Assembly (NCBI RefSeq): GCF_010882175.1
Contig: NZ_WKLH01000002.1
Span: 248,001-312,000, forward strand
Length of the DNA: 64,000 nt
Source: Mangrovibacterium lignilyticum
GTDB lineage: Bacteria; Bacteroidota; Bacteroidia; Bacteroidales; Prolixibacteraceae
Reading direction: 5' to 3'
Position numbers and translations under genes: made by a program. Positions 2 through 14,319 of the stretch are shown piece by piece; position 1 is the stretch's first letter; each line of letters starts with the position of its first letter. A model generated the notes under the pieces. That model saw only the letters and a list, made by a program, of their open reading frames with translations. It was not told where the DNA came from and made no database searches.

Positions 2-403
2 AATGACGACCGGACAGGTTTTGAAGAATTATACACCGACACCATTTTCGACAATCACCATCATGGTCTAATTGAGTTGGATGGTTACATATACGGTTCG
101 AACTGGGAAAATAACCGCAAAGGGAACTGGTTGTGCAAAAATTGGGAGACCGGTGAAATATCTTATAACGAGCCTTGGAATACCAAAGGAGCCATTGTGT
201 TTGCCGATAGCATGCTTTACATCTACGAGGAACAACGAGGAACGGTGGCATTGGTAAAACCTGATCCGGAAAAATTTGAGGTCGTAAGCAGTTTTCAGGT
301 AAAAAAGGGGAGTGGTCCGCATTGGGCTCATCCTTTTATTAACGATGGCAAACTTTTCCTGCGTCACGGCGATGTACTGCAGGTTTATGAAATTAAAGAA
401 TAG
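2..403 (+). CDS. PQQ-like beta-propeller protein, C-terminal part (cut by window start)
   Basis: The reading frame is open from the first bases to the TAG at 401-403, so this is the 3' end of a longer gene. The visible 133 residues carry the repeating pattern of PQQ-like propeller blades (G-x-I/L-Y-G-S-N, L-x-C-K-N-W-E-T-G-E-I). They end with the family-typical closing segment GPHWAHPFINDGKLFLRHGD followed by VYEIKE. A membrane-anchored or periplasmic location is inferred from the neighbours. The stop codon is followed directly by the GTG start of the next propeller gene, so the two are surely co-transcribed. Whether PQQ or any cofactor binds cannot be told from this part. The fold is confident, the function unknown. 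Confidence 0.75.
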   Translation, partial: NDDRTGFEELYTDTIFDNHHHGLIELDGYIYGSNWENNRKGNWLCKNWETGEISYNEPWNTKGAIVFADSMLYIYEEQRGTVALVKPDPEKFEVVSSFQVKKGSGPHWAHPFINDGKLFLRHGDVLQVYEIKE

Positions 404-1828
404 GTGAAAAAGAATCCGGTCCATATAATTCTGTTGTTGGCGATCCTGGTCGGATTGGCAGGTTTTGTGTATTGGTTTACGACCGATCCGGTGAAAGATT
501 TAGCCGTTAGCGTTCCGGGAAAAGATAACCGGCAAAAAGGCAACCTCATTGAAGAAATCATTAAAATCGGTGAAAAGTTCCAGCTGTTTGGAAAAGCCAG
601 TGAATCCAGTTTTGTCGGTACATGGCCGCGTTTTCGGGGCGAGAACTTCGATAATATCGTTAGCGAAAAACAGCATTTGAAAGACAATTGGGATGCCGGT
701 GAGCCGGAGATAAAATGGTCGGTCGAATTAGGCGAAGGGCACGCCGGCGCTGCAATTTACAAAGGTTTGGTTTATGTAATGGACTACGATGAAGAATCCC
801 GTGAAGATGCGTTACGCTGCTTTTCTCTATTGGATGGAAAGGAAATATGGCGGCGTTCCTACGGCATCCATGTGAAACGGAATCATGGCATGTCACGCAC
901 CGTTCCGGCCGTTACTGACGATTATGTCGTTACCATCGGTCCTCGCTGTCAGGTCATGTGTGTTGACCGTAAAACCGGCGATTACTTATGGGGAATTGAT
1001 ATGGTGAAAGAATACGGTTCAGTCATTCCGCAGTGGTACACAGCCCAATGTCCCTTGATCGATGGCAACAAGGTCATTCTGGCTCCGGCCGGAAGTAAAC
1101 TGATGATCGCTGTTGATTTGCAGACCGGAGAAAAAATTTGGGAATGCCCGAACGACCTTCAGTATAACATGTCGCATTCGTCGATCATGCCGATGACTTT
1201 AAACGGTGAAAAAATGTATGTGTACAGTGCGAATGGTGGTATTTGTGGCATATCGGCCAGTGGTGACGACGAAGGAACAGTACGTTGGTATTCCAATGAA
1301 TGGCGTTTTTCGGTGGTTGCTCCTTCTCCTTTAATTTTTCCTGATGGTCGGATTTTTCTGACGGCAGGTTATGGTGCAGGAGGGATGATGATCAAAGTAA
1401 TTCCGACAGGAGATAGCTACCAAGTTGATGTTTTAGCGGAGTACAAACCGAAAGACGGACTGGCTTGTGAGCAACAAACGCCGGTGTACTACAACGGTTT
1501 TGTATATGGCATTCTACCCAAGGATGGCGGTGCATACCGGAATCAATTGGTTTGTGTGAGCCCCGATGATGTGCAAAAAATTCGGTGGACTTCAGGGAAG
1601 GTCAGCCGGTTCGGATTGGGACCTTACCTGATTGCTGATGGCAAAATGTACATTTTGAGTGATGATGGAACGCTGACTATGATCAAGCCGGATCCCAATC
1701 AGTACATCCAGTTGGCGCACAAGAAGCTGTTCGATGGGCATGATGCGTGGGCTCCTTTGTCCATCTCAGATGGTTTGCTGCTTTTACGCGATTCGAAAAC
1801 CATGTTTTGTTTGGATATCAGTGAATAG
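404..1828 (+). CDS. Membrane-anchored PQQ-like beta-propeller protein
   Basis: 474 residues. A GTG start directly abuts the preceding stop codon. Residues about 6-26 form one hydrophobic segment (HIILLLAILVGLAGFVYWF), an uncleaved anchor that would place the rest in the periplasm. The propeller begins near residue 68 with the motif WPRFRGENF, the W-P-x-F-R-G opening shared with two other proteins of this cluster. It continues with blades of the type G-x-x-Y-V-M-D and D-x-x-T-G-E-K-I-W-E-C. No c-type haem motif (CxxCH) is present. Family members bind PQQ or act as scaffolds such as BamB; which applies here is not visible. It lies 6 bp before the next propeller gene. Confidence 0.8.
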   Translation: MKKNPVHIILLLAILVGLAGFVYWFTTDPVKDLAVSVPGKDNRQKGNLIEEIIKIGEKFQLFGKASESSFVGTWPRFRGENFDNIVSEKQHLKDNWDAGEPEIKWSVELGEGHAGAAIYKGLVYVMDYDEESREDALRCFSLLDGKEIWRRSYGIHVKRNHGMSRTVPAVTDDYVVTIGPRCQVMCVDRKTGDYLWGIDMVKEYGSVIPQWYTAQCPLIDGNKVILAPAGSKLMIAVDLQTGEKIWECPNDLQYNMSHSSIMPMTLNGEKMYVYSANGGICGISASGDDEGTVRWYSNEWRFSVVAPSPLIFPDGRIFLTAGYGAGGMMIKVIPTGDSYQVDVLAEYKPKDGLACEQQTPVYYNGFVYGILPKDGGAYRNQLVCVSPDDVQKIRWTSGKVSRFGLGPYLIADGKMYILSDDGTLTMIKPDPNQYIQLAHKKLFDGHDAWAPLSISDGLLLLRDSKTMFCLDISE

Positions 1829-1834
1829 AAGACT

Positions 1835-2806
1835 ATGAAAAAACGAACGTTAATCAATATTATTCTAATCGTTTCAGCGCTGGCCATTGCGTTTATCATT
1901 GGACGAGATTTTGTAGTCAACCGACAGGGAAAGCAGTTGGAAAATCCCTATGAGCTGGATTTGAAACAATTTGCACAGGTTAACCCGGAAGAAATTTTAT
2001 ATGCGGAAACAAAAGCGATCCAATTGAATATCAACGAGGCTTATGCGTTGTCAATATTTAGCGATACCATGTACGTCGTGGCCGACAGTACTTTGTTGCT
2101 AGTCAATCAGGAAGGTCAAATATTGAAGTCATTTCAACTTTCGGTACCGGCAACTGCCATTGCTGTCAATCAGTCGATTTGGTTAGCCTTAAAAAACAGG
2201 ATTATCAATTTAAACAAGGATGGGGATGTCCTAAAGGAATGGGCTGATTTAGGTCCTCGCTCAGTGCTAACATCTTTGGCCGTAGATGATCAATCAGTTT
2301 TTGCTGCAGATGCCGGTAATCGGGTCGTTTATCAATTTTCAAAGTTGGGGGAGTTGAAGCAAAAATTGGGAGAACGGGATGAGCAGAAAGGCCTGGAAGG
2401 GTTTACTGTTCCAAGCCCGTATTTTGATGTTGCGTTGAGTGAGGATGGCTTTCTCTGGGCTGTAAATCCGGGAACACACAGTTTGATTAACTTCAATGTC
2501 GATGGAAGTTTGCGCACTTACTGGTCAAAATCGTCCGCCAATACAGCGGGTTTCAGTGGCTGTTGCAATCCGGCTCATATGTGTATCGCCACTCAGGATA
2601 AATTCATCACCAGCGAAAAAGGAATTGTGCGGGTGAAGGTTTACGACCAGCACGGAGAATATCAGGGAGTGGTCGCTGCACCCGATCAGTTTGATGAATA
2701 CAGTTTGGCGCCGGACGTTTGTGTTGATAATCAAGGAAGGATTGTTTTGCTGGATTTCAACCGGAAACAGATTCGCTTTTTTGAAGCCAAAAACAAGGAA
2801 CTATGA
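1835..2806 (+). CDS. Membrane-anchored NHL/SMP-30-like beta-propeller protein
   Basis: 323 residues. An N-terminal anchor (residues about 6-22, LINIILIVSALAIAFIIG) is followed by a six-bladed-type propeller with NHL-like strands (V-F-A-A-D-A-G-N-R-V-V-Y-Q-F; G-R-I-V-L-L-D-F-N-R-K-Q-I-R-F-F). A cluster GCCNPAHMC near residues 242-250 puts three cysteines and a histidine together in an otherwise Cys-poor periplasmic domain. It could be a metal or Fe-S contact site (inference). The stop codon overlaps the start of the next gene by 4 bp (ATGA), which points to translational coupling with the Tat-type protein that follows. Its partners are probably the ferredoxins encoded just downstream. Confidence 0.7.
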   Translation: MKKRTLINIILIVSALAIAFIIGRDFVVNRQGKQLENPYELDLKQFAQVNPEEILYAETKAIQLNINEAYALSIFSDTMYVVADSTLLLVNQEGQILKSFQLSVPATAIAVNQSIWLALKNRIINLNKDGDVLKEWADLGPRSVLTSLAVDDQSVFAADAGNRVVYQFSKLGELKQKLGERDEQKGLEGFTVPSPYFDVALSEDGFLWAVNPGTHSLINFNVDGSLRTYWSKSSANTAGFSGCCNPAHMCIATQDKFITSEKGIVRVKVYDQHGEYQGVVAAPDQFDEYSLAPDVCVDNQGRIVLLDFNRKQIRFFEAKNKEL

Positions 2807-3000
2807 AACGAAGAGAATTTCTAAGACAATCGGCACGTGTTGGAATTTTGACAGCGATGGCTGGTGGAGTAGTGCTTTTAGCCAGCAAAAACAGAATTGA
2901 CTGGACTTGCACCGAAAATAAAACCTGCAAGGCTTGCACAAAATATGCTTCTTGTGATTTAGACCAAGCGATAGGAAACAGGAAAAATGAAAAAGGATAA
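2803..3000 (+). CDS. Very small twin-arginine-type, cysteine-rich protein
   Basis: 65 residues, starting inside the stop of the upstream gene (ATGA). It opens with a Tat-like signal: RREFLRQ at residues 3-9, then the hydrophobic stretch VGILTAMAGGVVLLAS. The mature part is only about 35 residues and has four cysteines, C36-x5-C42-x2-C45-x5-C51. That pattern could hold one Fe-S cluster or two disulphides. Its 3' end overlaps the next gene by 14 bp. Export by Tat implies folding or cofactor loading in the cytoplasm before transport. I do not recognise a named family. The overlaps on both sides and the signal support a real gene rather than a chance frame. Confidence 0.65.
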   Translation: MKRREFLRQSARVGILTAMAGGVVLLASKNRIDWTCTENKTCKACTKYASCDLDQAIGNRKNEKG

Positions 3001-3595
3001 ACAACAAAATAGTCGAACCAGCCGGCGCGAATTCATTCAAAAGAGTATGCGGCTGTCGATGGGGATAGGACTCGCTGCAGTTGGTGGATTGGTGGCTTTT
3101 CGTGTTCATGCCGATGATACGGTTTGGCAGCTCGATCCATTTAAGTGCGTGGCTTGTGGTCGGTGTGCCGATTATTGCGTCATGACCCCTTCGGCTGTAA
3201 AATGCGTGCATGCTTTCGATCTTTGCGGGTACTGCGACCTGTGTGGTGGTTACCTCAAACCCAATGCGAATGCCCGGTCAACAGCGGCGGAGAACCAATT
3301 GTGCCCAACCTCGGCTATACGTCGGAAGTTCGTTGAAGAGCCTTATTTTGAATACGAAATAGAAGAGAAATTATGCATTGGCTGTGGCATTTGTGTGGAA
3401 GGTTGTACCGCTTTCGGAAATGGATCGTTGCATTTGCAGGTGCGTCACAATGTATGTGTGAATTGCAATGAATGTTCTATCGCACGGGTTTGTCCCGCAG
3501 ATGCCTTTCAGCGGGTACCGACTTCTCAGCCATACCTGATAAAAGGAGAGTGGACCAAAGACCAGGATAAGAAAAAACAAAGCCCAACCGGATAG
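2987..3595 (+). CDS. Tat-exported polyferredoxin (multiple 4Fe-4S sites)
   Basis: 202 residues. The Tat signal SRREFIQKSMRLSMG (residues 12-26) and a hydrophobic stretch are followed by a cysteine-rich ferredoxin body. Clusters seen: C54-x2-C57-x2-C60-x3-C64; C73 with C80-x2-C83-x2-C86; C106-P; C130-x2-C133-x2-C136-x3-C140; C157-x2-C160-x2-C163-x5-C169-P. This allows up to four clusters, as in NapG/MauM-type periplasmic ferredoxins. The protein would pass electrons on the periplasmic face to or from the membrane Fe-S protein encoded 5 bp downstream. The start overlaps the small Tat protein gene. The assignment as an electron carrier is strong; its donor and acceptor are inferred. Confidence 0.85.
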   Translation: MKKDKQQNSRTSRREFIQKSMRLSMGIGLAAVGGLVAFRVHADDTVWQLDPFKCVACGRCADYCVMTPSAVKCVHAFDLCGYCDLCGGYLKPNANARSTAAENQLCPTSAIRRKFVEEPYFEYEIEEKLCIGCGICVEGCTAFGNGSLHLQVRHNVCVNCNECSIARVCPADAFQRVPTSQPYLIKGEWTKDQDKKKQSPTG

Positions 3596-3600
3596 AGCCC

Positions 3601-4857
3601 ATGAAAAAGAGACTAATAAAACTAACCCTGTTGATTTTTTTCATCTGCCTGGCGGTTACAAGCTTTGCACAACAGCAGCGATTTCCAAAACCTGAATTCG
3701 AAACCGGTTATGTGCAGCCGCCAACCCAGCAACCATTACCACGGGCATTGTTTCTCGAATATCTGGATGTAATTGTCTTGATTGGTGCACTGATTTTGGT
3801 ATCCTGGTTTTTACTGAAGAAGCGTTCGCGTCAAGGCGTGCTGTGGACATCAGTATTCTCATTGTTGTACTTCGGATTTTACCGCGAGGGCTGCATCTGT
3901 GCTATCGGAAGTATTCAGAATGTTGCTTTGGCGATCTTCGATCCTACTTATACTTTGCCTCTGACGGCACTCTTATTTTTCCTGATTCCGTTGATAACCG
4001 CGCTCTTCGCTGGCCGAACCTTTTGTGCAGGTGTTTGCCCGCTGGGGGCCATTCAGGATTTGGTTGCTTTTAAACCCATTGAATTGCCGCGTTGGTTGCA
4101 GAAAGTCTTGGGACTGATTCCATATGTCTATTTATCGCTGGCAGTACTTTATGCGGCAACCAGATCCGAGTTTTTGATTTGTCGCTACGATCCCTTTGTT
4201 GGTTTCTTTCGCTTCGACGGAACCTTCCAGATGTTACTGCTGGGTGGACTTTTCCTTCTAGTAGGCGTATTTGTAGCCCGCCCGTATTGTCGCTTTTTTT
4301 GTCCATATGGCGTATTGTTGGGATGGATGTCTTCGTTCTCAAAAAAGCACGTCACAATCACGCCTTCGACCTGCATTCAATGTAAACTTTGTTCCAACTC
4401 GTGTCCGTTTGGAGCAATAGAAGAACCACTATTGGAAGAGGGTAAACGCCGTTCAAATGTAAACCGATTGATGACCTACTTGATTCTCATTCCAATATGG
4501 ATGGGGATCGGCGGGCTTTCCGGTTCGATGCTACACGGTACGTTGGCAAAATTCAATAAAACAGTTTATTTGGCTGAAATGCTGGTCCAGAATCCCGATA
4601 TCCGCTTTAATCAGGAAAATATTGATGCCCGCACATTCATGCAAAAAGGAAAGACGATGGACGAGCTGGTGGTAGATGCACAAAAAATTAAAAGTCAATT
4701 TTATTGGGGAGGATGGATTGCCGGTGCATTCATGGGGCTGGTCGTTGGACTGGTTTTGGTGAATTTATCGTCTTACCGCCGACGAAATGATTATGAACCC
4801 GATCGAACAAATTGCCTGAGTTGTGGACGATGCGTTGATTATTGTCCCGTAAAATGA
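3601..4857 (+). CDS. NapH/NosR-like 4Fe-4S membrane protein
   Basis: 418 residues. An N-terminal hydrophobic leader ends in SFAQ. Several membrane segments follow (about 53-73, 83-97, 118-138, 169-187, 210-228), with the family cysteine motifs CAGVCPLGA (142-150) and CRFFCPYG (230-237). A ferredoxin motif C-x2-C-x2-C-x3-CP lies near residues 258-268 and another at the extreme C-terminus (C405, C408, C411, C415-P). Another helix precedes the terminal cluster. NapH/NosR proteins shuttle electrons across or along the membrane between quinol or cytosolic donors and periplasmic acceptors. Placed between periplasmic ferredoxins and a cytoplasmic NADH dehydrogenase module, it is the natural membrane conduit of this cluster (inference). 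Confidence 0.85.
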   Translation: MKKRLIKLTLLIFFICLAVTSFAQQQRFPKPEFETGYVQPPTQQPLPRALFLEYLDVIVLIGALILVSWFLLKKRSRQGVLWTSVFSLLYFGFYREGCICAIGSIQNVALAIFDPTYTLPLTALLFFLIPLITALFAGRTFCAGVCPLGAIQDLVAFKPIELPRWLQKVLGLIPYVYLSLAVLYAATRSEFLICRYDPFVGFFRFDGTFQMLLLGGLFLLVGVFVARPYCRFFCPYGVLLGWMSSFSKKHVTITPSTCIQCKLCSNSCPFGAIEEPLLEEGKRRSNVNRLMTYLILIPIWMGIGGLSGSMLHGTLAKFNKTVYLAEMLVQNPDIRFNQENIDARTFMQKGKTMDELVVDAQKIKSQFYWGGWIAGAFMGLVVGLVLVNLSSYRRRNDYEPDRTNCLSCGRCVDYCPVK

Positions 4858-4866
4858 GGTTTTGCT

Positions 4867-6738
4867 ATGATGACTATAAACGATAAAAAGCATTTGGCCC
4901 GGGGGCTTGCTTGGTTTGGAGCTATTTTTAGCCTGGTGGTCAGCGTGATGTTGATTGCGAATTACTTTCAACTGAAATCTGTTGATCCGTTGGAAAGCCC
5001 GGCTCTGAAGGTTCTCGTGGAGCAACTACATGAAAATCCGCATGATGATGTGTTGAAGGAAAATATTCGGGCACTCGACTTAATGATTCGCAAAGCCTAC
5101 TTCACCAGCCAATGGCAAATCAGAACCGGAACCTGGATGTTGATTCTGGGAGTATTGGTTCTCATTCTGTCGATTCGTTGGCAGAAATCCCTTCGCAACG
5201 AATTAGATGAGCTTGAATCCATCGATAAGAATCCCTTTCTGGACAAACAACTCGCTCGTAAAGGAGTCATATATACCGCTCTTGGAATTTTTATGCTAGC
5301 CTTACTTTCCGGTTTCTTATCGGGCAATATCCTGGATCAGTATGATTCAACAAAAGGACAGGACCAAGAGGCAGATTCAGCGGTCGAAATCATTGTGGCT
5401 AAGCCAGTGGAGCAAAATTCGGAGACTATTGCAGATTCTTCAAAGTCAGTTAGTATGCAAGAAAAAACTTCAGATGAAATAGTCGAAGTGCCTATAAATG
5501 AAGAACTAGATAAAAAAGAAGAAATAGAGAGTAAAAGTGAAGAGGTTAAGAAAATCAAGTCCGAACCGACAGTCCCTTCCAGAGAACAAATTCGAAAAAA
5601 CTATCCATTCTTCCGGGGACCCGATGGTGACGGAATGAGTTATAAAACCGGCGTACCAAAATCATTTGACGGGCCGAACGTGAAAAACGTTTTGTGGAAA
5701 GCGAGTGTTCCGAAGCATGGTTACAACTCACCGATAATTTGGAACGATCGACTCTTTCTTACCGGAGCCGATAGTGAGGCTCGCATGGTGTATTGCTTCG
5801 ATAAAAACAGCGGAAAGCTTTTGTGGGAATCTGCTGCTGACAATATTCCGGGCTCGCCGGCAAAAATGCCCAAGGTTACTGAAGATACGGGATTAGCAGC
5901 TTCGACAATGGCTACAGACGGACAGGCTGTTTTTGCAATTTTTGCAACCGGTGACCTTATCGCACTCGATTTTGAGGGGAAAAGACTTTGGGCTAAAAAC
6001 CTTGGAGTACCCGACAACCACTATGGACACTCGTCATCGCTGGTAATTTATAAAAACAAATTACTCATTCAGTACGATACCAATAAAGGGGGCAAGCTGA
6101 TCGCCCTCTCCACTGCCGATGGATCTCAAAAATGGGAAACAACCCGAAATGTAAAGATTTCGTGGGCATCACCGGTTCTGGTTAATACAGGAACACGAGA
6201 TGAAATTATTTTGACGGCCGATCCGCTGGTGGCCGGATACGACCCCGAAACCGGCAAGGAACTGTGGACTGTTGAGTGCATGATGGGTGAGGTTGGCCCA
6301 TCGGTTGCCTATGCGAATGGCTTGGTGTACGCGGCAAACGAGTATGCAACCATGGCTGCTATTAGGTTGGGAGGCTCGCCAGAGATCATCTGGGAGGAGC
6401 AGGAATATCTCCCCGAAGTGGCCAGTCCGCTGGCAGCAAACGGTCTGCTGATTGTTGCGACAAGTTATGGCGTACTGGCTTGCTATGATGCTGAAACCGG
6501 CGACAAATACTGGGAACATGAAGCTGCGAGTGGTTTTTATGCGTCACCGGTTTATGCTGACAGTAACGCCTATGCGATTGACATGAGCGGCAAAATGTAC
6601 GTGATCAGGATGGCTAAAGAGTTTGAATTGGTTGCGGAGTCTAATCTTGGGGAGAAAGCTTTTGGCACACCTGTATTCTCGGAGGGGAAACTATACCTCA
6701 GGGGAGTCGAAAATCTGTATTGCATAGGAGGTAACTAG
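4867..6738 (+). CDS. Membrane-anchored PQQ-like beta-propeller with long linker
   Basis: 623 residues. The N-terminal third has three hydrophobic segments (about 12-34, 77-98, 137-158). An acidic/lysine-rich linker (about 160-235, many E, K, S) follows, then a PQQ-like propeller from residue about 243, which opens with YPFFRGPDGDG. Blades show D-x-N-S-G-K-L-L-W-E and D-x-E-T-G-D-K-Y-W-E patterns. The linker looks like a spacer that lets the propeller reach away from the membrane. The gene lies 9 bp after the NapH-like gene and 1 bp before the NuoE-NuoF fusion, so the three are clearly one transcription unit. The propeller's cofactor, if any, is unknown. Confidence 0.8.
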   Translation: MMTINDKKHLARGLAWFGAIFSLVVSVMLIANYFQLKSVDPLESPALKVLVEQLHENPHDDVLKENIRALDLMIRKAYFTSQWQIRTGTWMLILGVLVLILSIRWQKSLRNELDELESIDKNPFLDKQLARKGVIYTALGIFMLALLSGFLSGNILDQYDSTKGQDQEADSAVEIIVAKPVEQNSETIADSSKSVSMQEKTSDEIVEVPINEELDKKEEIESKSEEVKKIKSEPTVPSREQIRKNYPFFRGPDGDGMSYKTGVPKSFDGPNVKNVLWKASVPKHGYNSPIIWNDRLFLTGADSEARMVYCFDKNSGKLLWESAADNIPGSPAKMPKVTEDTGLAASTMATDGQAVFAIFATGDLIALDFEGKRLWAKNLGVPDNHYGHSSSLVIYKNKLLIQYDTNKGGKLIALSTADGSQKWETTRNVKISWASPVLVNTGTRDEIILTADPLVAGYDPETGKELWTVECMMGEVGPSVAYANGLVYAANEYATMAAIRLGGSPEIIWEEQEYLPEVASPLAANGLLIVATSYGVLACYDAETGDKYWEHEAASGFYASPVYADSNAYAIDMSGKMYVIRMAKEFELVAESNLGEKAFGTPVFSEGKLYLRGVENLYCIGGN

Positions 6739-6739
6739 T

Positions 6740-9094
6740 ATGGCAGAAGATCTTCAACATATCCACAAGCAGGTTGATGAAATCATTAGTAACCGGGGGC
6801 GGACGAAAAAGTCGCTGATCCCGATTTTGCAAGACATTCAGCGTCATTTCAATTATTTGCCAGAAGAAGCATTACAATACTTGGTCGAACAGAGCGAAAT
6901 TACGCCCGAAAACATAACCAGTGTCGCAACATTCTATTCCCAGTTCCGGATGAAGCCTGCGGGACGACACATGATCAAAGTTTGTGTTGGAACAGCTTGC
7001 CATGTTAAAGGAGCGATGCAGGTTTACGATTCATTTAAGCGTCATTTTAAGTTGAATGATAATGATCTAACAGATATTACCGGAACTTACACTTTAGAAA
7101 AGGTTGCTTGCCTGGGCTGTTGTACATTGGCACCTGTTGTGCAGGTCGATGATGTGACCTACGGACATGTCACCTCGGATAAAGTGGAGTCGGTCATTGC
7201 TGATTTTGAGAGTCAGGTTGGAAAGCGAGGCGATCGCAAGCAATTTCGCAATGCTGATGGCTCCGAGTTTCAGGGCGAAATCCGAATTGGATTAGGATCG
7301 TGCTGTGTTGCCAGTGGCAGCGAAGAGGTGAAACGTGAAGTTGAAAATACAATTATCGGGACAGGGATTAACCTGCAACTCAAAAATGTGGGCTGCGTGG
7401 GGATGTGTCACCAGGTTCCTTTGCTCGAGGTTATTGACGAAAAGCAAAATCATAAACTATACGCGAAAGTAAAACCGAATGAGGTTTCCGGGATTATCAA
7501 TTCGCACTTTAAGCCCAAAAGTTTGCTGGGAAGGTTGAAGGCCAAAGGCTACAGCTTCCTGGAAAAAATGCAGAGCGACGAATCATGGGAAGGTGTGGAA
7601 CGTTACGCTTTGGATGTTCGAGAGGACATGGTTTCCGGTTTTCTGGATCGTCAGCTGCCAGTTGCTACTGAGCATCGTGGGGTCATCAATCCGCTCGACA
7701 TGGACGAATATCGCAGTCATGGCGGCTTTGAGGCGCTAACGAAAGTACTGGGCATGGACAGGCAGGAACTTATTCAAACGGTTAAAGAAAGCGGTTTACG
7801 CGGCCGTGGCGGCGCTGGTTTTTTGACAGGCTTGAAGTGGGAGTTTGTTGAAAAAGAAAAAGCCGAACACAAATATCTGATTTGTAATGGTGACGAGGGG
7901 GATCCGGGGGCGTTTATGGATCGGATGATTCTCGAGTCGTATCCTTATCGGGTCATTGAGGGGATGCTTATTGCCGCTTATGCAGTAGAAGCTACCGAAG
8001 GCTATTTTTACATCCGCGCCGAGTATCCGCTGGCTGTCATTCGAATTCGGCAGGCACTAATCAATTGCCGCGAACAAAATTTATTGGGTGAAAATATATT
8101 GGGCTCAAACTTTAGTTTCGATATGCAGATTTACGAGGGTGCCGGTGCATTTGTCTGCGGTGAAGAAACAGCACTGATGACTTCAATCGAAGGAAATCGG
8201 GGATTCCCGACAATTCGTCCGCCATTCCCGGCGCAGAAAGGGCTTTGGGGATTTCCCACGCTCATCAATAATACCGAGACCTTCGCACAAATTTCATACA
8301 TCATTCGCAACGGAAAAGAACAATATTGTTCAATTGGTACCGAGCAGTCGAAAGGCACTAAAGTGTTCTCGTTGGCCGGTAAAATAAATCGCGGAGGACT
8401 GATTGAAGTGCCGATGGGGATTACCATTCGGGAAATTGTGGAAGAAGTCGGCGGTGGTGTCCAAAATGGAAAAAAGTTCAAAGCCGTTCAGGTTGGAGGC
8501 CCTTCGGGAGGCTGCATTCCTGCCTCACTGGCCGATACACCGATCGATTACCAGTCGCTAACCGCAGTGGGTGCGATGATGGGATCTGGAGGGTTGGTCG
8601 TGTTGGACGAGGACGATTGTATGGTTGACATTGCACGTTACTTCCTGTCATTTACTCAGAATGAATCGTGTGGAAAATGTACTTTTTGTCGGATTGGAAC
8701 CAAACGCATGCTGGATATCCTGAATCGGATTTGCAGCGGGAAAGGTACGCTTAAGGATCTGGATGAATTGAAATATTTGGCTGAATGGACAAAAAAAGGA
8801 AGTTTATGCAACCTGGGAAAATCAGCGCCAAACCCAATTCTGACAACGCTCAAATATTTTCATGAGGAATACGAAGCACATTTGGAAGGACGTTGCCCTG
8901 CCGGAAAGTGCACCGAAATGATTAGCTACACGATTACAGATGATTGCATCGGTTGTACCAAATGCGCGCAGAAATGCCCGGTTGATGCCATCAAATTTGA
9001 AGCACATAAGAAGCACTCGATCAACACAGAACTTTGCATCAAGTGCGATGCTTGTCGCCCGGTTTGCCCGGTCGACGCTGTGAAAGTGCTCTGA
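6740..9094 (+). CDS. NuoE-NuoF fusion flavoprotein with C-terminal 2x4Fe-4S ferredoxin
   Basis: 784 residues. Residues 1-155 are a NuoE-type 2Fe-2S thioredoxin-fold domain (C82, C87, C124, C128). Residues about 178-260 are a second thioredoxin-like domain with C188, C189, C219 and C223, as at the N-terminus of HndC/HydB proteins. The NuoF core follows: GLRGRGGAGF near 352 and CNGDEGDPGAF near 381 for NADH and FMN, then ESCGKCTFCRIGT near 642 for the N3-type 4Fe-4S cluster. The tail (736-784) is a two-cluster ferredoxin (CIGCTKCAQKCP and CIKCDACRPVCP). It should oxidise or reduce NAD(P)H in the cytoplasm. No hydrogenase H-cluster subunit is present in the window. NuoE and HndC parts are usually separate proteins. 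Confidence 0.9.
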   Translation: MAEDLQHIHKQVDEIISNRGRTKKSLIPILQDIQRHFNYLPEEALQYLVEQSEITPENITSVATFYSQFRMKPAGRHMIKVCVGTACHVKGAMQVYDSFKRHFKLNDNDLTDITGTYTLEKVACLGCCTLAPVVQVDDVTYGHVTSDKVESVIADFESQVGKRGDRKQFRNADGSEFQGEIRIGLGSCCVASGSEEVKREVENTIIGTGINLQLKNVGCVGMCHQVPLLEVIDEKQNHKLYAKVKPNEVSGIINSHFKPKSLLGRLKAKGYSFLEKMQSDESWEGVERYALDVREDMVSGFLDRQLPVATEHRGVINPLDMDEYRSHGGFEALTKVLGMDRQELIQTVKESGLRGRGGAGFLTGLKWEFVEKEKAEHKYLICNGDEGDPGAFMDRMILESYPYRVIEGMLIAAYAVEATEGYFYIRAEYPLAVIRIRQALINCREQNLLGENILGSNFSFDMQIYEGAGAFVCGEETALMTSIEGNRGFPTIRPPFPAQKGLWGFPTLINNTETFAQISYIIRNGKEQYCSIGTEQSKGTKVFSLAGKINRGGLIEVPMGITIREIVEEVGGGVQNGKKFKAVQVGGPSGGCIPASLADTPIDYQSLTAVGAMMGSGGLVVLDEDDCMVDIARYFLSFTQNESCGKCTFCRIGTKRMLDILNRICSGKGTLKDLDELKYLAEWTKKGSLCNLGKSAPNPILTTLKYFHEEYEAHLEGRCPAGKCTEMISYTITDDCIGCTKCAQKCPVDAIKFEAHKKHSINTELCIKCDACRPVCPVDAVKVL

Positions 9095-9099
9095 GTTGC

Positions 9100-9528
9100 G
9101 TGTTTCGAGTTACAAGTTTCGCCTTTACAACAAAAGTGAAGAGAATGAAAAGTTACAAGGATTTAGAGGTTTATCAGGAAGCATGTAAACTGGCGATCAA
9201 AGTTCATCGGGTGAGTTTGGAGCTACCGAAATATGAACTTTACGAGCAGGGGAGTCAGATTCGGAGAAGTTCAAAAAGCATTAAGGATAATATTGCTGAA
9301 GGATTTGGGCGAAGAAGATACAAGGATGAATTTATTCGCTTTTTGATATTTGCACATGCATCTTGTGATGAAGCGATTTCGCAACTAAGCATGATTAATG
9401 AAATCTATTTTGAAAATAGTGGATTAAATGAACTGCTTAGTGAATATGAGATTCTCAGAGCAAAAATCAATAAATTCATCCAATATGTAGAAAGTAATTG
9501 GCAGACTCCAACCCGTAACTTGAAACAC
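9100..9528. repeat. Inverted repeat pair enclosing the four-helix-bundle gene
   Basis: The left arm is GTGTTTCGAGTTAC (9100-9113), six bases after the stop of the NuoE-NuoF gene. The right arm is GTAACTTGAAACAC (9515-9528), inside the 3' end of the four-helix-bundle gene. The arms are complementary at 13 of 14 positions. In RNA they would close a loop of about 400 nt containing the gene, the same geometry as 23S intervening sequences that are cut out at their basal stem. No clear target-site duplication is seen next to the arms. Confidence 0.7.
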
Positions 9529-9543
9529 AAAACATTGCAATAA
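9145..9543 (+). CDS. Four-helix-bundle protein (23S rRNA intervening-sequence type)
   Basis: 132 residues from the ATG at 9145. The frame is open further upstream, but family members start at MKSYKDLEVYQEACKLA. Recognisable signature segments are YKDLEVYQ, IRRSSKSIKDNIAEGFGR and FLIFAHASCDEA. This family is known from intervening sequences in 23S rRNA and from scattered solitary copies. Here it interrupts two consecutive redox genes and shares no visible function with them. A 14-bp inverted repeat flanks the gene (9100-9113 and 9515-9528, one mismatch); the right arm lies within its last codons. The TAA stop overlaps the next ATG by one base, so translation is probably coupled. Its role in the cell is not known; it may bind RNA. 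Confidence 0.85.
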   Translation: MKSYKDLEVYQEACKLAIKVHRVSLELPKYELYEQGSQIRRSSKSIKDNIAEGFGRRRYKDEFIRFLIFAHASCDEAISQLSMINEIYFENSGLNELLSEYEILRAKINKFIQYVESNWQTPTRNLKHKTLQ

Positions 9544-11111
9544 TGATTAAACTCAAAATAAATAGCCAATCCATCGAAATTCCGAAAGGAACAACTGTTT
9601 TGGAAGCAGCCCGAAAGTTAGGCATCAATATACCCACGATGTGCCACCTGGAGGGAACTGAGCATTTTACCTCGTGCATGGTTTGCCTGGTGAAAGATGC
9701 CGGCAATGGTCGCTTGCTTGCTTCCTGCTCCATGCCGGCGATGGATGGAATGGAAATAATCACCGACGACGCTGAATGCCTTGAATCGCGAAGAGTGTCA
9801 CTGGAGCTACTACTGAGCGAGCATGTTGGCGATTGCGAAGCTCCCTGTCAATTGGTATGTCCCGCCCGTATGAATATCCCACTGATGAACCGACTGATTG
9901 CCAGCGGGAACTTCAGCAAGGCTATCGAGGTTGTGAAACGTGACATTGCTTTGCCTGCTATTCTGGGACGGATTTGTCCTGCTCCCTGCGAAGCGGGTTG
10001 TCGGCGTAAATCCATCGATGAGGCTGTTTCCATTTGCCTGTTGAAGGGTTTTGCTGCAGATAACGAATTGACTACAAATAAACACTCTGTAGCGTCAAGC
10101 AGCAATTCAGGCCGCAAAGTTGCAATTATTGGAGCTGGCCCGGCCGGACTGGCAGCTGCTTTTTATCTGAGCAAAGCAGACCATTCAATTTCAATTTTCG
10201 AGAAAAATGAGAAAGCCGGAGGTGACTTGCTGAAAATTGAAGAAACAGTTCTACCCGCGAATATTCGGGAAATCGAGATTCAAACTATTTTGAATTCCGG
10301 TGTAGCCATTCAATACCAAACAGAAATTGATAAAGTCCGCTTCACAGAATTACAACAGAATTTTGATGCCGTTATATTGGCAACAGGAGCCATGAACGGT
10401 GCAATGGAAGAGTGGGGGTTGACTCTCTCTAAAAGTGGGATTGAAGTCGATAAAAAAACCTACCAAACGATACTTCCAAAGGTTTTTGCGATTGGCAACG
10501 CCTTACGGCCTTCAAAACTGGCAGTTCGGTCGGTCGGGCAAGGGAAGGAGCTGGCTCACCTACTGGATGAATACTTTAAAAATGATGTGCTGCATGCATT
10601 GCCGGAGCGATTCAATTCAAAGTTTGGGAAGCTGATCGAAACCGAGTATGTAACCTATTTGAAGGAGAGCAACACCAATAAACGCGTGGATGCAAGTGGA
10701 GGAAAGGCACACGGATTTTCCAGCGAAGAGGCCGTGGCTGAAGCTAAACGCTGCTTACATTGTGATTGTCGAAATCCGGAAAGCTGCAAACTGCGGGCGT
10801 TGGCCGACGAATTTGGAGCAGTTCAAAAACGGTTCCAATATGACGATCGTGTGCTCGTTGAAAAAGAATTTGTGTCAAAAAAGATCGTCTACGAACCCAA
10901 TAAATGCATCAAATGCGGCATCTGTGTTCGACTGACCAAACAGCATCAGGAAGCGTTTGGCTTTAGCTTTATCGGGCGGGGATTTGATGTTCGGATTGGC
11001 GTTCCCTTTTCAGAATCGATAGAAAAGGCTTTGGAGAAAACAGCGGTTTTAGTCGCTGAAAAGTGCCCGACTGGAGCGTTGGCTTTACTGGATTCGGAGG
11101 AACAATTATAG
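9543..11111 (+). CDS. NuoG-N/GltD-like Fe-S flavoprotein lacking the NAD(P) subdomain
   Basis: 522 residues. Residues 1-80 form a plant-type 2Fe-2S domain (C34, C45, C48, C62) as in NuoG/HydA. Residues about 98-175 form the Fe-S domain that precedes GltD-type modules (DCEAPCQLVCP; ICPAPCEAGC). The FAD dinucleotide fold VAIIGAGPAGLAAAFYL starts near 193 and closes with ILPKVFAIGNALRPS near 315. The second nucleotide-binding fold that GltD and NfnB proteins carry between these parts is missing: only about 25 residues separate ILATGA from the closing strand. A ferredoxin-like tail follows (CIKCGIC near 456; CPTGA near 508). The ATG overlaps the four-helix-bundle stop. Probably the electron partner of the NuoE-NuoF protein; the role of its FAD is inferred. 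Confidence 0.85.
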   Translation: MIKLKINSQSIEIPKGTTVLEAARKLGINIPTMCHLEGTEHFTSCMVCLVKDAGNGRLLASCSMPAMDGMEIITDDAECLESRRVSLELLLSEHVGDCEAPCQLVCPARMNIPLMNRLIASGNFSKAIEVVKRDIALPAILGRICPAPCEAGCRRKSIDEAVSICLLKGFAADNELTTNKHSVASSSNSGRKVAIIGAGPAGLAAAFYLSKADHSISIFEKNEKAGGDLLKIEETVLPANIREIEIQTILNSGVAIQYQTEIDKVRFTELQQNFDAVILATGAMNGAMEEWGLTLSKSGIEVDKKTYQTILPKVFAIGNALRPSKLAVRSVGQGKELAHLLDEYFKNDVLHALPERFNSKFGKLIETEYVTYLKESNTNKRVDASGGKAHGFSSEEAVAEAKRCLHCDCRNPESCKLRALADEFGAVQKRFQYDDRVLVEKEFVSKKIVYEPNKCIKCGICVRLTKQHQEAFGFSFIGRGFDVRIGVPFSESIEKALEKTAVLVAEKCPTGALALLDSEEQL

Positions 11112-11136
11112 TTTAAATGAAGCGTTCAATTTAAAA

Positions 11137-12246
11137 ATGCGAAGAAAAATATACCTACTACTTTCAATCCTTTGCTTTTCTGTTTTGGCTAGTGCCCAAA
11201 GCGAATGGCCTATTTTTAGAGGAAATCAGGAATTGACCGCATCAATCAAGGCCGATCTTTCGCCTGACCTGAAACTACTGGCTTCCTTTCAAACGGAAGA
11301 TGAAATAAAGGCATCGCCGGTTGTCAAAGACGGCATCGTGTTTTGCGGTTCGACCGATGGATGGTTTTATGCCTTCAACCTGAAAGGCGAGTTGAAATGG
11401 AAATTTCAAGCTGAGAATGGCATTGAAGCTCCTGCTGTTCTATTGGATGGCAAAGTTATATTTGGCTGTCTGGACGGGCAATTAATTTGTCTGGACGAAA
11501 AAGACGGCGCGCTCCTTTGGAAATACGAAACTGAGAATCAGATTGTCGGCTCAGCCAATTGGAAGGTGATTGATGAAAAAACAGTTTTAGCTGTTGGAAG
11601 TTATGACTATTTCCTCCACGGAGTGAACTTGGCCGATGGGAAGGGATTGTGGAAATATGAATCGAATAATTTCATTAACGGAGCTCCTTCGCTATACAAG
11701 AATACTGTTGTATTTGGCGGTTGCGATGGGCTTTTACATATTGTCGATCTGGCAGTTGGGAAGGCTGAAAAGACAATTGAGCTTTCAACTTATGTTGCTT
11801 CTTCGCCGGCTATCGTAGAGAATATAGCCTATGTGGGAGATTATGACGGTCGTTTTTTTGCCGTCGACCTGCAAGCGGGAAAGGTGCTTTGGACCTATGA
11901 CAATCCGGAGAAAGATCTGCCCTTTATCGCTTCGCCCGCGATCAGTGGCGATTTGATTGTCCTTGGAAATGAAGACCGTCAACTCTATGCATTCAATAGA
12001 AAAGATGGTACATTAGTCTGGACAAAGCGATTGAGCAATCGGATTGACTCGTCGAGTGCCATTGCCGGAAATTCGGTTTTTACAGCCACCATGGATGGGA
12101 TGCTGTACCGGCACGATTTGAAAAGTGGCGAGGAACTGTGGACTTACGAAATTGGCAGCCGAATATCAGGCTCACCGGCTATTAGCGATGGAAAGCTAAT
12201 TATTGGTGCAAGTGACGGCAGAATCTATATTTTCGGAACAGACTAA
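11137..12246 (+). CDS. Secreted BamB/PQQ-like beta-propeller protein
   Basis: 369 residues. A classical signal peptide (residues 1-20, ending LASAQ) is followed at once by the cluster-typical opening WPIFRGNQE. Seven or so PQQ-like blades follow, such as G-S-T-D-G-W-F-Y-A-F-N-L-K-G-E-L-K-W-K-F and D-L-K-S-G-E-E-L-W-T-Y-E. Unlike the other propellers of the cluster it has no membrane anchor, so it should be soluble in the periplasm. It lies 25 bp after the flavoprotein gene and 10 bp before the glycosyltransferase gene. BamB itself is a scaffold in outer-membrane protein assembly, but the position with redox genes suggests another job here. Confidence 0.8.
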   Translation: MRRKIYLLLSILCFSVLASAQSEWPIFRGNQELTASIKADLSPDLKLLASFQTEDEIKASPVVKDGIVFCGSTDGWFYAFNLKGELKWKFQAENGIEAPAVLLDGKVIFGCLDGQLICLDEKDGALLWKYETENQIVGSANWKVIDEKTVLAVGSYDYFLHGVNLADGKGLWKYESNNFINGAPSLYKNTVVFGGCDGLLHIVDLAVGKAEKTIELSTYVASSPAIVENIAYVGDYDGRFFAVDLQAGKVLWTYDNPEKDLPFIASPAISGDLIVLGNEDRQLYAFNRKDGTLVWTKRLSNRIDSSSAIAGNSVFTATMDGMLYRHDLKSGEELWTYEIGSRISGSPAISDGKLIIGASDGRIYIFGTD

Positions 12247-12256
12247 ACCAAACAGT

Positions 12257-13543
12257 ATGAAAATAGCGCATATTATACCAGGTTCCGGAGGCAGCTTTTA
12301 TTGTGGCAATTGCCTTCGCGATAGCAAATACATGCGGGCCCTGCAGGATTTAGGCCAACAAGTAGTGAAAGTGCCGCTATACCTTCCTTTATTTGAAGAT
12401 GCGCATGATTTAGCTGAAGTACCCGTTTTTTATGGCGCTGTGGACACTTACCTGAAACAGCGTTTCCCGGTTTTCCGATATATGCCTCCATTGGTTGATA
12501 AAATGCTGAACTCGAAACCTGTTTTGCATTTAGCGGCGCAAAATGCCGGTTCAACCCGTGCGAAAGGCTTGGAAGAAATGACTGTGTCAATGTTACTGGG
12601 AGAAGATGGTCTGCAAAAAGAGGAGTTGGAACGTTTGGTGGAATGGCTGAAAGAAGAAGCCAAACCTGATGTTGTCCATTTGTCGAATGCTTTGCTATTG
12701 GGATTAGCGCGTCGAATCAAACAAAAACTAAAGATTCCGGTGGTTTGCTCCCTCCAGGATGAAGACGTTTGGATTGATGTGATGAGCGAGAAAAACAGGG
12801 ATGAATGTTGGGAGATCATGAAAGAACGGGCCAAAGAGGTCGACGCATTTGTAGCTGTAAGCGATTTCTATGCCGGCGATATGAAACGTCGTCTTCACCT
12901 CAATGACAAGCAACTATTCGTCAACCATATCGGTGTTGATTCGGCTGATTATTCACCTAAAGTAATTGCTGAAAAAAAACCGATAATTGGATATATATCA
13001 AGGATGTGTGAAGATAATGGGCTCGACATTTTGGTTGATGCTTATATCTTGCTGAAAGAAGATCCTGCTTTCGAATCGGTTGAGTTAAGAATAACTGGTG
13101 GCAAAACAAACGACGACACTAAATTTATTCAGGAACAGAAGAAAGTCATCGCTCAAGCTGGATTGACCGGATCGGTACATTGGGTGGAAGAATTTGAAGG
13201 GGAAGCTCGTCAACGGTTTTTCGACTTAGTAGCGCTTTTGTCTGTTCCGGTGTTGAATGGAGAAGCTTTCGGCTTGTATCAACTGGAAGCACTGGCTTCG
13301 GGCATTCCACTTGTTCAACCCGAACTGGGGGCCTTCCCCGAAGTTGTCAACCTTTCTGAAGGTGGTGTCATCTATCACCCGAACAGCCCGAAAAAATTAG
13401 CAAAAGCCTGGAAAAGTCTGATTCTGGATCCTGCCAAATTGAGCGAACTAAGTAAGGCAGGTCTCGCAGGCGTGAAAAAGCATTTCGACATTCACCAACA
13501 AGCTAAAAAGCTGGTGGATATTTATGAAAAGGTCAAAAATTGA
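12257..13543 (+). CDS. Glycosyltransferase family 4 protein
   Basis: 428 residues from the ATG at 12257, where MKIAHIIPGSGGSFYCGNC starts the first Rossmann fold. The frame is open 54 bp earlier, but that extension would overlap the upstream gene. The C-terminal donor-sugar domain shows the GT4 pattern: GYISRMCEDNGLD, a stretch ending VHWVEEF, and GEAFGLYQLEALASGIPLV, where E-x7-E is the family nucleotide-sugar contact. It should move a sugar from a nucleotide donor to an unknown acceptor on the cytoplasmic side. Close spacing to the propeller gene suggests one operon, but a direct tie to electron transfer is not evident. Confidence 0.8.
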   Translation: MKIAHIIPGSGGSFYCGNCLRDSKYMRALQDLGQQVVKVPLYLPLFEDAHDLAEVPVFYGAVDTYLKQRFPVFRYMPPLVDKMLNSKPVLHLAAQNAGSTRAKGLEEMTVSMLLGEDGLQKEELERLVEWLKEEAKPDVVHLSNALLLGLARRIKQKLKIPVVCSLQDEDVWIDVMSEKNRDECWEIMKERAKEVDAFVAVSDFYAGDMKRRLHLNDKQLFVNHIGVDSADYSPKVIAEKKPIIGYISRMCEDNGLDILVDAYILLKEDPAFESVELRITGGKTNDDTKFIQEQKKVIAQAGLTGSVHWVEEFEGEARQRFFDLVALLSVPVLNGEAFGLYQLEALASGIPLVQPELGAFPEVVNLSEGGVIYHPNSPKKLAKAWKSLILDPAKLSELSKAGLAGVKKHFDIHQQAKKLVDIYEKVKN

Positions 13544-13571
13544 AACTATTAATTCGATGCAAACAGATACA

Positions 13572-13617
13572 CAGGGGGTAACGACCGATGACTGTCCCCT
13601 GAATCCTGCGTCACCCC
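13572..13617 (+). promoter_or_regulatory. Two mutually exclusive hairpins before the ABC exporter genes
   Basis: In the 101-bp gap before the ABC ATPase gene, CAGGGG (13572-13577) can pair with CCCCTG (13596-13601). The overlapping GGGGTAACG (13575-13583) can instead pair with CGTCACCCC (13609-13617), with one mismatch. The two stems share bases and so exclude each other. This could be an attenuator-like leader or chance; no T-run follows either stem. Confidence 0.3.
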
Positions 13618-13644
13618 AATAACTCATAACACGAAACTCATTTT

Positions 13645-14319
13645 ATGCTTGAAATCAACCAACTTTGCAAAAGCTTCACCTCCGGTTCAGGAGAAAAACG
13701 AATCATTCTGGATGAACTGGACCTGACCGTTAATGCAGCCGAACGTGTAGCCATTGTTGGACCATCAGGTTCCGGTAAAAGTACCCTGCTGAATCTGATC
13801 GGTGCTTTGGATGCTCCGGATTCGGGGACGATCTTGCTGAATGGTGAATCGGTGTTCTCGAAGACTGAAGCTGAATTAGCTGTTTTTCGGAACCATTCGG
13901 TTGGCTTTGTTTTTCAATCGCATCATCTCTTGCCGCAATTTAGTTTGAAAGAAAATATACTGCTTCCGGTATTGGCTCAGCAGCGAAATATTGACCAATT
14001 GGTTCTGGAGCGAGCCGATTATCTGATGGAGCGCCTGGGAATAGCTTCTCTGCAGAAACAGCGCCCTTCGCAACTCTCGAGAGGAGAGTGTCAACGCACA
14101 GCTGTTGCCCGTGCTCTTATTAATCGTCCCAAGATTCTGTTGGCCGATGAACCTACCGGAGCACTGGATCAGCATTCCGCTGATCAGTTGGTAGAGCTAT
14201 TGCTTCAGCTCAACCGGGAAGAAAAGGTGAGCTTACTGGTCGTAACTCATGCGATGCGTGTCGCTTCTCAAATGGGCAAAATTTACAACTTGACGGACGG
14301 AAAACTACTGATCAAATGA
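13645..14319 (+). CDS. ABC transporter ATP-binding protein (LolD/MacB type)
   Basis: 224 residues, the normal size for LolD/MacB-family ATPases. Walker A GPSGSGKST is near residue 39, the Q-loop FVFQSHHLLPQFS near 91, and Walker B ILLADEPTGALDQHS near 169, with the H-loop VVTHAM near 204. The signature motif reads LSRGE in place of the usual LSGGE, a mild variation. The gene overlaps the permease gene by 4 bp. The pair should form a MacB-type mechanotransmission complex acting on periplasmic substrates (lipoproteins, peptides or small molecules); the substrate is unknown. Confidence 0.9.
   Translation: MLEINQLCKSFTSGSGEKRIILDELDLTVNAAERVAIVGPSGSGKSTLLNLIGALDAPDSGTILLNGESVFSKTEAELAVFRNHSVGFVFQSHHLLPQFSLKENILLPVLAQQRNIDQLVLERADYLMERLGIASLQKQRPSQLSRGECQRTAVARALINRPKILLADEPTGALDQHSADQLVELLLQLNREEKVSLLVVTHAMRVASQMGKIYNLTDGKLLIK

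Follow-up and report, generated by a model that had tools for sequence, protein, structure and literature searches.

Here we describe a run of closely packed genes at the start of a 64,000-nucleotide stretch of the Mangrovibacterium lignilyticum genome (contig NZ_WKLH01000002.1, positions 248,001 to 312,000; hereafter the window, which sits in contig 9 of the 5.6-Mb genome). The run belongs to a conserved block of about fourteen genes in an order common to many related bacteria, and it is best explained as a single conserved chain that relays electrons across the inner membrane, built from a NADH-handling core, a membrane polyferredoxin, exported iron-sulphur (Fe/S) proteins and a set of propeller proteins. 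Taken whole, with an isoprenoid lipid included, this explanation has about an even chance of being right. The architecture as proposed is likely, an outward flow of electrons is slightly favoured, and a lipid as client or partner of the relay is a tentative suggestion that falls somewhat short of even chances. A preliminary description of the window had placed ten plus-strand genes, some of them overlapping, between positions 2 and 12246, and all were found as placed, with intergenic distances of -14 to +50 bases; the products that it listed are likewise all present, namely four propellers like those that bind pyrroloquinoline quinone (PQQ), one of them partial, a propeller of the NHL type, two Cys-rich proteins with a twin-arginine translocation (Tat) signal, a NapH-like membrane protein, a NuoE-NuoF fusion (NuoEF) and a protein combining the N-terminal part of NuoG with a GltD-like domain. 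Beyond that list, two further propeller genes (PQQ1 and PQQ2) begin upstream of the window, an open reading frame (ORF) of the 23S_rRNA_IVP family lies between NuoEF and NuoG, and glycosyltransferase, ABC ATPase and FtsX genes follow downstream, these last three being kept with the run in other genomes; there is also a link to the ABC-FtsX pair and to a terpenoid operon that lies elsewhere in the genome.

The order of genes in the run exceeds chance. Three overlapping sets of genomes, all of them samples of Bacteroidota, were searched: 61 related genomes (that of the window included), 395 genomes of the class and 296 of the phylum, the first two sharing G000, G055 and G057 at the least. With the NHL protein as query, 32 of the 61 related genomes gave matches, and 30 were counted as relay carriers and 31 as non-carriers; 28 carriers matched with E values of 4.8e-51 or lower, G059 and G001 with 5.8e-25 and 1.1e-22, and G014 (best E value 6e-4) and G019 (4e-6), whose loci were not inspected, were scored as non-carriers. 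One locus each was retrieved from 28 of the 29 other carriers (G001 and G059 among them, G030 left out). A second collection, the named loci, comprised the best 80 of at least 574 confirmed stretches, picked by their Tat-exported ferredoxin (TatFd); named and unnamed loci overlap in part, L116 and L064 both coming from one 230,315-base contig. Co-occurrence of the gene families in other genomes had been put forward in the preliminary description as a check of its proposal, and the families do stay together, in the named loci and in 25 of the 28 retrieved ones. The series PQQ3-NHL-(small Tat protein)-TatFd-NapH-PQQ4 runs in order, with an inserted ORF now and then, in 26 of the 28, and in 25 it is also followed by NuoEF; the exceptions are a locus truncated at the end of its contig (L088), a rearranged one (L082) and a 3.8-kb contig that bears NHL alone (L084). 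In the named loci a pair was counted where at least 2.6 kb followed and the second gene stood among the next three called genes. By this rule PQQ1 and PQQ2 came in order in 59 of 64 cases, PQQ2 and PQQ3 in 66/66, PQQ3 and NHL in 73/73, NHL and the small Tat protein (TatS) in 70/72, TatS and TatFd in 70/70, TatFd and NapH in 71/71, NapH and PQQ4 in 68/68, PQQ4 and NuoEF in 64/64, NuoEF and NuoG in 49/51, and NuoG and PQQ5 in 17/17. Three loci, L089, L090 (from G001) and L232, hold a divergent form that we call type B, the remaining loci being type A.

Among the matches listed, carriers of the ferredoxin include Sunxiuqinia, Gaoshiqia, Mariniphaga, Draconibacterium, Maribellus and Tangfeifania, and likewise many metagenome-assembled genomes (MAGs) labelled Prolixibacteraceae or Bacteroidales. 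Further out it is rare: four of the 395 class genomes carry it, two of these outside the order, and in the phylum sample only the window's own genome matched strongly, the 43 other matches being generic ferredoxin matches with E values of 2e-7 or weaker. A plasmid collection gave one weak match to the NHL protein and none to the ferredoxin. Two MAGs labelled Saprospiraceae and Phaeodactylibacter (L173 and L180) also carry the cluster, through either wrong binning or transfer.

The cytoplasmic part of the relay is the best recognised. Cores of the HydABC and Stn kind split or merge electrons among NAD(H), ferredoxin and a third partner, which is reached through the clusters of a NuoG-like subunit. 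The NuoE-NuoF fusion (6740..9094, plus strand) is, by its matches to the sequences of solved structures, the counterpart of StnA plus StnB or of HydC plus HydB: it scores best against NfnB of 9n5u (9n5u_B, 729 bits), 9bov_B (690) and StnB (8oh5_B, 686), as compared with at most 387 bits for NuoF of complex I in the same table. The StnB-type match spans the whole NuoF part (residues 181-783) and the NuoE part at the N-terminus corresponds to StnA; a Trx domain, FMN and NAD residues and a C-terminal two-cluster ferredoxin domain are all carried. Residues E386 and D388 pair with StnB E184 and D186, which are discussed at the bifurcating FMN in PMC10482914. Of the earlier reading as a NuoEF-type flavoprotein, therefore, the fusion itself stands and the plain NuoF does not, since the sequence is that of a core of the electron-bifurcating Stn/HydABC type.

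The partner subunit seems to have been cut down. The NuoG-like protein (9543..11111, plus strand), an N-terminal NuoG part with a degenerate GltD domain and conserved Cys, matches StnC in two pieces, residues 2-284 to StnC 4-288 and residues 293-513 to StnC 444-671, and about 147 residues between them are missing (against the 9bov chain, the alignment jumps from 289 to 425). Nothing in it aligns to StnC 289-443 or to StnC 672-1172, the FdhF-like end. The gap lies at what we take to be the site of the NADPH Rossmann domain in a GltD-type fold. Furthermore, V236 pairs with StnC R239, whose replacement by Ala brought Stn from 1.08 down to 0.03 U/mg, according to PMC10482914. As far as sequence can tell, only an NADH site is left, because the GltD domain has lost its NADPH-binding portion and a Val stands where Stn requires an Arg; the transmembrane pathway between cytoplasmic NAD(P)H and periplasmic propellers that was first proposed thus fits in its anatomy and fails, by the sequence, in its NADPH part. 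The cluster-type Cys of the NuoG-like protein are conserved across relatives, and the type B proteins, of 323, 335 and 327 amino acids in L089, L090 and L232, match 2Fe-2S and 4Fe-4S families only, with no flavin-domain family, as would be expected of a wire. The subunit is therefore probably an Fe/S wire linking the core to a partner. In the relay that we propose, it would dock on the NapH-like protein as its relatives do on hydrogenase (HydABC) or NADPH modules (Stn), and NADH together with reduced ferredoxin would, in a confurcating mode, push low-potential electrons out through the NapH-like clusters to TatFd. The host probably makes reduced ferredoxin, to judge from a separate RnfB gene (80.6 bits, cut-off 68.7). 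Several RnfB-like ferredoxin-domain matches also cluster at G000:C11:214664-219911, possibly a hydrogenase locus.

The main rival, which we consider rather unlikely, reverses this direction: a periplasmic oxidation of sugar, aldehyde or lipid would supply the core with low-potential electrons, to be bifurcated to NAD+ and ferredoxin. Stn itself runs both ways, as stated in PMC10482914, and some neighbours of the relay are suggestive. In L116 (Gaoshiqia) and L117 (Sunxiuqinia), Pfam identifies a 3-keto-disaccharide hydrolase, a xylose-isomerase-like protein and a Gfo/Idh/MocA oxidoreductase directly before PQQ1, and in L122 a ThuA protein (L122:18186-19145) between NuoG and PQQ5, a hint that sugar oxidation may partner the relay there. 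Such neighbours, however, vary by lineage, with TypA in L077, pectate lyase and GH43 in L115 (Sunxiuqinia indica) and the cyclase operon described below in others, and the conserved set holds no enzyme that oxidises a small molecule.

From the core, the outward relay would continue through a membrane protein and two exported carriers. The NapH/MauN/NosR-like polyferredoxin (3601..4857, plus strand; Fer4_5, 1.4e-14) has a signal-like stretch followed by several hydrophobic helices, and Cys pairs or sets at 142/146, 230/234, 258-268 and 405-415; a search of solved structures returned a weak NuoI-like stretch as its sole match. TatFd (2987..3595, plus strand) has 17 Cys, enough for four [4Fe-4S] clusters, and a Tat motif of the RR/KR/RK-x-F type in 105 of 105 sequences. 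The small Tat-signal protein TatS (2803..3000, plus strand), 65 amino acids long and below the length limit of the ORF list, was read directly from the DNA; it has the pattern C-x5-C-x2-C-x5-C, its C36, C42, C45 and C51 are present in at least 97% of 87 sequences and a Tat-like motif in 90 of 96, and Pfam gave no match. (For residue conservation, exact duplicates and sequences whose length deviated by over 20% were dropped, the length rule being waived for this protein.) In type B loci a separate small Tat protein was not called, and an NHL protein there has a Tat-like signal and a C-x2-C-x3/4-C-P tail, which suggests a fusion of the two; L090 holds a second, anchored NHL copy. Together the small Cys protein and the NHL propeller would hand electrons from TatFd on to the other propellers.

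The NapH-like protein and TatFd could instead form a NapGH-like quinol module that draws its electrons from menaquinol, with no more than a loose link to the NADH core. NapG, like TatFd, is exported by the Tat route and would hold four clusters, and NapH and NapH/MauN are indeed the best NCBIfam models for the membrane protein. Their scores, however, are 49.9 and 49.6 bits against cut-offs of 234 and 213, no NapG model is on the list for the ferredoxin, and NuoEF follows PQQ4 in every named locus with room for it, the exception being L082 among the unnamed loci. We regard this alternative as improbable.

What lies at the far end of the relay may be indicated by a second operon. On contig 11 of the window genome, apart from the relay (L095:13354-19724), are five genes in the order FDX-RSAM-PPS-TOR-SHC, encoding an HdrA-like Fe/S protein, a radical SAM protein, a fusion of DUF116 with a prenyl synthase, a toroid and a DxDDT cyclase. 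This stand-alone order is kept in 13 of 13 loci (L217-L229); the cyclase of L230 has different neighbours, and the prenyl synthase of that genome is on another contig (L212). A DxDD acid motif is the mark of class II terpene cyclases, and D-x-D-D-T is found in 25 of 25 cyclase sequences, pairing with the same motif of squalene-hopene cyclase (SHC), while Asp-rich stretches of the prenyl-synthase type are present in all 16 prenyl synthases checked. Among the 61 related genomes the cyclase occurs in 18 of the 30 relay carriers and in none of the 31 non-carriers (Fisher test 6.6e-8, kinship ignored), and these 18 are also precisely the genomes with the DUF116-prenyl synthase (E value of 1e-30 or lower). 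Two of the 395 class genomes have the cyclase, both among the four ferredoxin carriers. No cyclase without relay was seen in the 61 or the 395 genomes, samples that overlap. The recurrent neighbours of the stand-alone operon were considered and taken as unrelated, lying on the other strand in all the larger groups listed.

In several relatives the two sets of genes are physically joined. Eight of the 50 named loci that have PQQ1 and more than 2.5 kb upstream of it carry cyclase-operon genes there on the same strand, with the cyclase itself in L133, L142, L144, L151, L160, L174 and L189 and the prenyl synthase only in L165. Further same-strand joins are found in L163, where PQQ1 was not called, and in L089, L090 and L232; in L089 and L090, radical SAM, DUF116-polyprenyl synthase, toroid and squalene-cyclase-like genes stand upstream of PQQ1. 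All three type B loci have the ABC and FtsX genes directly after PQQ5, and synthesis genes, relay and ABC genes make up one run. L120 is arranged differently, with its Fe/S and radical SAM genes after PQQ5. With at least three different arrangements of relay and terpenoid genes, it is unlikely that their association goes back to one chance event of descent. Moreover, G001, although filed in the genus of the window, has a relay and a cyclase that both belong to the divergent type: its NapH and cyclase share 41% and 39% identity with those of the window, against 69-71% and 62-65% with those of G059 and G630 from other families, and the terpenoid-relay-ABC unit was probably transferred horizontally as a whole. 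An ArsP-type permease lies between the cyclase genes and the relay in L151 and L160 (Pfam) and, named by eye, in L144, L163 and L165; in L174 and L189 one upstream of PQQ1 was assigned by position and length only. L163 also has a CobW GTPase (Pfam) and L165 a similar ORF.

In genomes carrying the cyclase operon, the client of the relay would be an isoprenoid lipid made by the five genes, which the ABC-FtsX pair would carry outward and the periplasmic end of the relay would reduce or otherwise process. A different use of exported electrons is extracellular transfer to an outside acceptor, with the terpenoid operon as a membrane-lipid accessory or a passenger. The 12 of 30 carriers that have the relay without the cyclase, and the several propellers that look secreted, would suit it. 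Nevertheless, the run matched no outer-membrane conduit family, and the haem c motif that the preliminary description had found lacking is indeed absent: CxxCH occurs in none of the 17 locus proteins checked. A passenger operon, furthermore, sits poorly with a cyclase that was never seen apart from the relay in the two overlapping samples. This alternative, too, seems to us to have little chance.

The electron relay that we favour would end in propellers, of which the genome's set numbers six, PQQ1 to PQQ5 and NHL; three have membrane anchors and the other three are probably secreted. PQQ1 (L002:15911-17125) is a whole propeller gene upstream of the window, and PQQ2 (L002:17162-18403; PQQ_2, 7.9e-23), another, reaches into it with its C-terminal part (window 2..403, plus strand) and begins with a hydrophobic stretch, residues 4-22, read as a signal peptide. 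PQQ3 (404..1828, plus strand; PF13360, 2e-17), of 474 amino acids, has one N-terminal membrane anchor (hydrophobic residues 8-26) and a BamB fold; its predicted model (pLDDT confidence score 87) is closest to BamB and tetrathionate hydrolase in Foldseek, and C139, C186, C216, C384, C469, H113, H161 and H258 are present in at least 97% of 88 sequences, from which it may bind some ligand. The membrane-anchored NHL propeller (1835..2806, plus strand), with a conserved G-C-C-N-P, gave a model of pLDDT 88 with the NHL domain of TRIM2 as best fold, and its C243 and C244 are present in at least 97% of 94 sequences; for both models Foldseek returned general propeller folds only. PQQ4 (4867..6738, plus strand) has three N-terminal hydrophobic helices before its propeller, by Pfam and hydrophobicity, and PQQ5 (11137..12246, plus strand), with BamB as best NCBIfam model (150 bits, cut-off 285), has an N-terminus that looks secreted. 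Three propellers share the [WY]P-x-F-R-G opening, as had been noticed in the first description. The propellers may be acceptors, substrate holders or a scaffold. That they are PQQ-dependent dehydrogenases, whose electrons the Fe/S chain accepts, is scarcely credible despite their Pfam PQQ_2 matches, given that dehydrogenase models stay far under cut-off (at best 91 bits against 480, for PQQ5) and that the best folds for PQQ3, BamB and tetrathionate hydrolase, are not known to bind PQQ. A search for PqqC found no match, and control genomes gave none either.

Several observations weigh against the relay as we have drawn it, and against its lipid part above all. Two weak carriers are counted among the 30: in G052 the NHL gene stands alone on a 3.8-kb contig, and in G024 the cluster is rearranged, with no NuoEF in the 20 kb retrieved. 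Twelve of the 30 carriers have neither the cyclase nor the DUF116-prenyl synthase, so that this lipid cannot be the sole client: either the relay serves some purpose in its absence or something replaces it. Those 12 and the carriers G505 and G614 also have no close relative of the radical SAM protein, G028 and G050 having relatives of 30-32% identity. Between pairs of type A loci, identity in NapH correlates weakly with identity in the cyclase (0.36), as against 0.77 for cyclase and prenyl synthase. The absence of a small Tat protein is a weak argument, because it was likewise not called in L078, L083 and L186, where the NHL tails were not inspected. Finally, the contacts proposed between relay proteins are inferred.

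The surroundings of the run were also surveyed. The run starts with PQQ1 and PQQ2, and 176 bases separate PQQ1 from the preceding OmpA/TPR gene. A terminal enzyme gene just upstream, raised earlier as something that might explain the set, was not recognised in the 18 kb upstream, where ORFs of at least 120 amino acids were mostly named by eye: besides PQQ1 and PQQ2, these were the OmpA/TPR protein, histidine kinase and response regulator ORFs and, further upstream, sugar- and transport-like ORFs, with one ORF (L002:12439-13656) lacking a Pfam match and another (L002:9494-10096) being a redoxin family protein by Pfam. Upstream of PQQ1-PQQ2, promoter-like sites were rarer than in shuffled sequences, and terminator-like sites numbered 6 against 2.9 (standard deviation 1.6). 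Between NuoEF and NuoG, an ORF for a four-helix 23S_rRNA_IVP protein (9145..9543, plus strand; PF05635, 4.2e-26) looks like an occasional insert, since gene calling showed it in 13 of the 80 named loci. Past PQQ5 the run extends on the plus strand from 12257 to 17549, with a family-4-type glycosyltransferase (12257..13543), kept downstream in many type A loci and not called in the three of type B; an ABC ATPase (13645..14319), found after the glycosyltransferase or PQQ5 in relatives whose locus extends there; and an FtsX-type permease (14316..17549; PF02687), which follows the ABC gene in L089, L090 and L232. In L131 and L140 a very long ORF lies just upstream of the cluster and is followed by one that, by eye, resembles the membrane-fusion protein of an efflux system.

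If the relay is real, chemistry beyond the membrane would, across a large bacterial group, draw its power from a core of the bifurcation type, with no cytochromes in the locus, and a first function would be gained for a conserved set of proteins (propellers, NHL and Tat proteins) that family libraries describe by repeat or ferredoxin names only. The cyclase-operon link offers a way in, namely a lipid to look for. Possible, though on balance doubtful, is the fullest version of this proposal, a new envelope machine in which an NADH core of the bifurcation type, by way of Fe/S proteins and propellers, drives redox chemistry beyond the inner membrane on, or carried by, a self-made and exported cyclised isoprenoid; terpenoid synthesis, relay and ABC exporter would then be one unit, mobile between families.

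The core is of a known kind, and its NuoG partner and setting match no system tested or met in the open-access literature searched. Poor fits were quinoprotein dehydrogenases (at most 91 bits against 480), cytochrome-based extracellular electron transfer, on the lack of a multihaem cytochrome motif (CxxCH) in the 17 locus proteins, and the PLuB system (NF040673), which gave 17.2 bits (PQQ1) against a cut-off of 250 and whose name was not found as a phrase in the same literature. Rnf is likewise an NADH- and ferredoxin-linked membrane electron transfer system, but no Rnf model scored above cut-off in the ten proteins scanned. With the NapGH, MauMN and NosR modules the relay shares a membrane polyferredoxin beside a Tat-exported multi-cluster ferredoxin, and MauMN also accompany a propeller enzyme; unlike them, it is far under the NapH cut-off and is paired with an NADH core. 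The locus showed no recognisable nitrate reductase, amine dehydrogenase or N2O reductase, and no nap nitrate reductase genes were found nearby (ORFs by eye and NCBIfam models). The terpenoid operon resembles squalene-hopene cyclase pathways in its prenyl synthase and its class II cyclase family with D-x-D-D-T, the cyclase matching a solved SHC with 70 bits, mainly over the C-terminal half of SHC; it differs in the DUF116 fusion of the prenyl synthase, the extra toroid, the radical SAM protein and the HdrA-like Fe/S protein. The closest likeness is to Stn (StnABC), HydABC and their NiFe relatives, with which the relay shares the NuoE- and NuoF-like core, the Trx domain, the FMN and NAD residues, the C-terminal two-cluster domain and a third subunit of the NuoG-N/GltD-like kind. 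Here, however, the StnA and StnB parts are fused, the counterpart of StnC is without the NADPH domain, Arg239 and the FdhF part, and the relay operon includes membrane and exported proteins.

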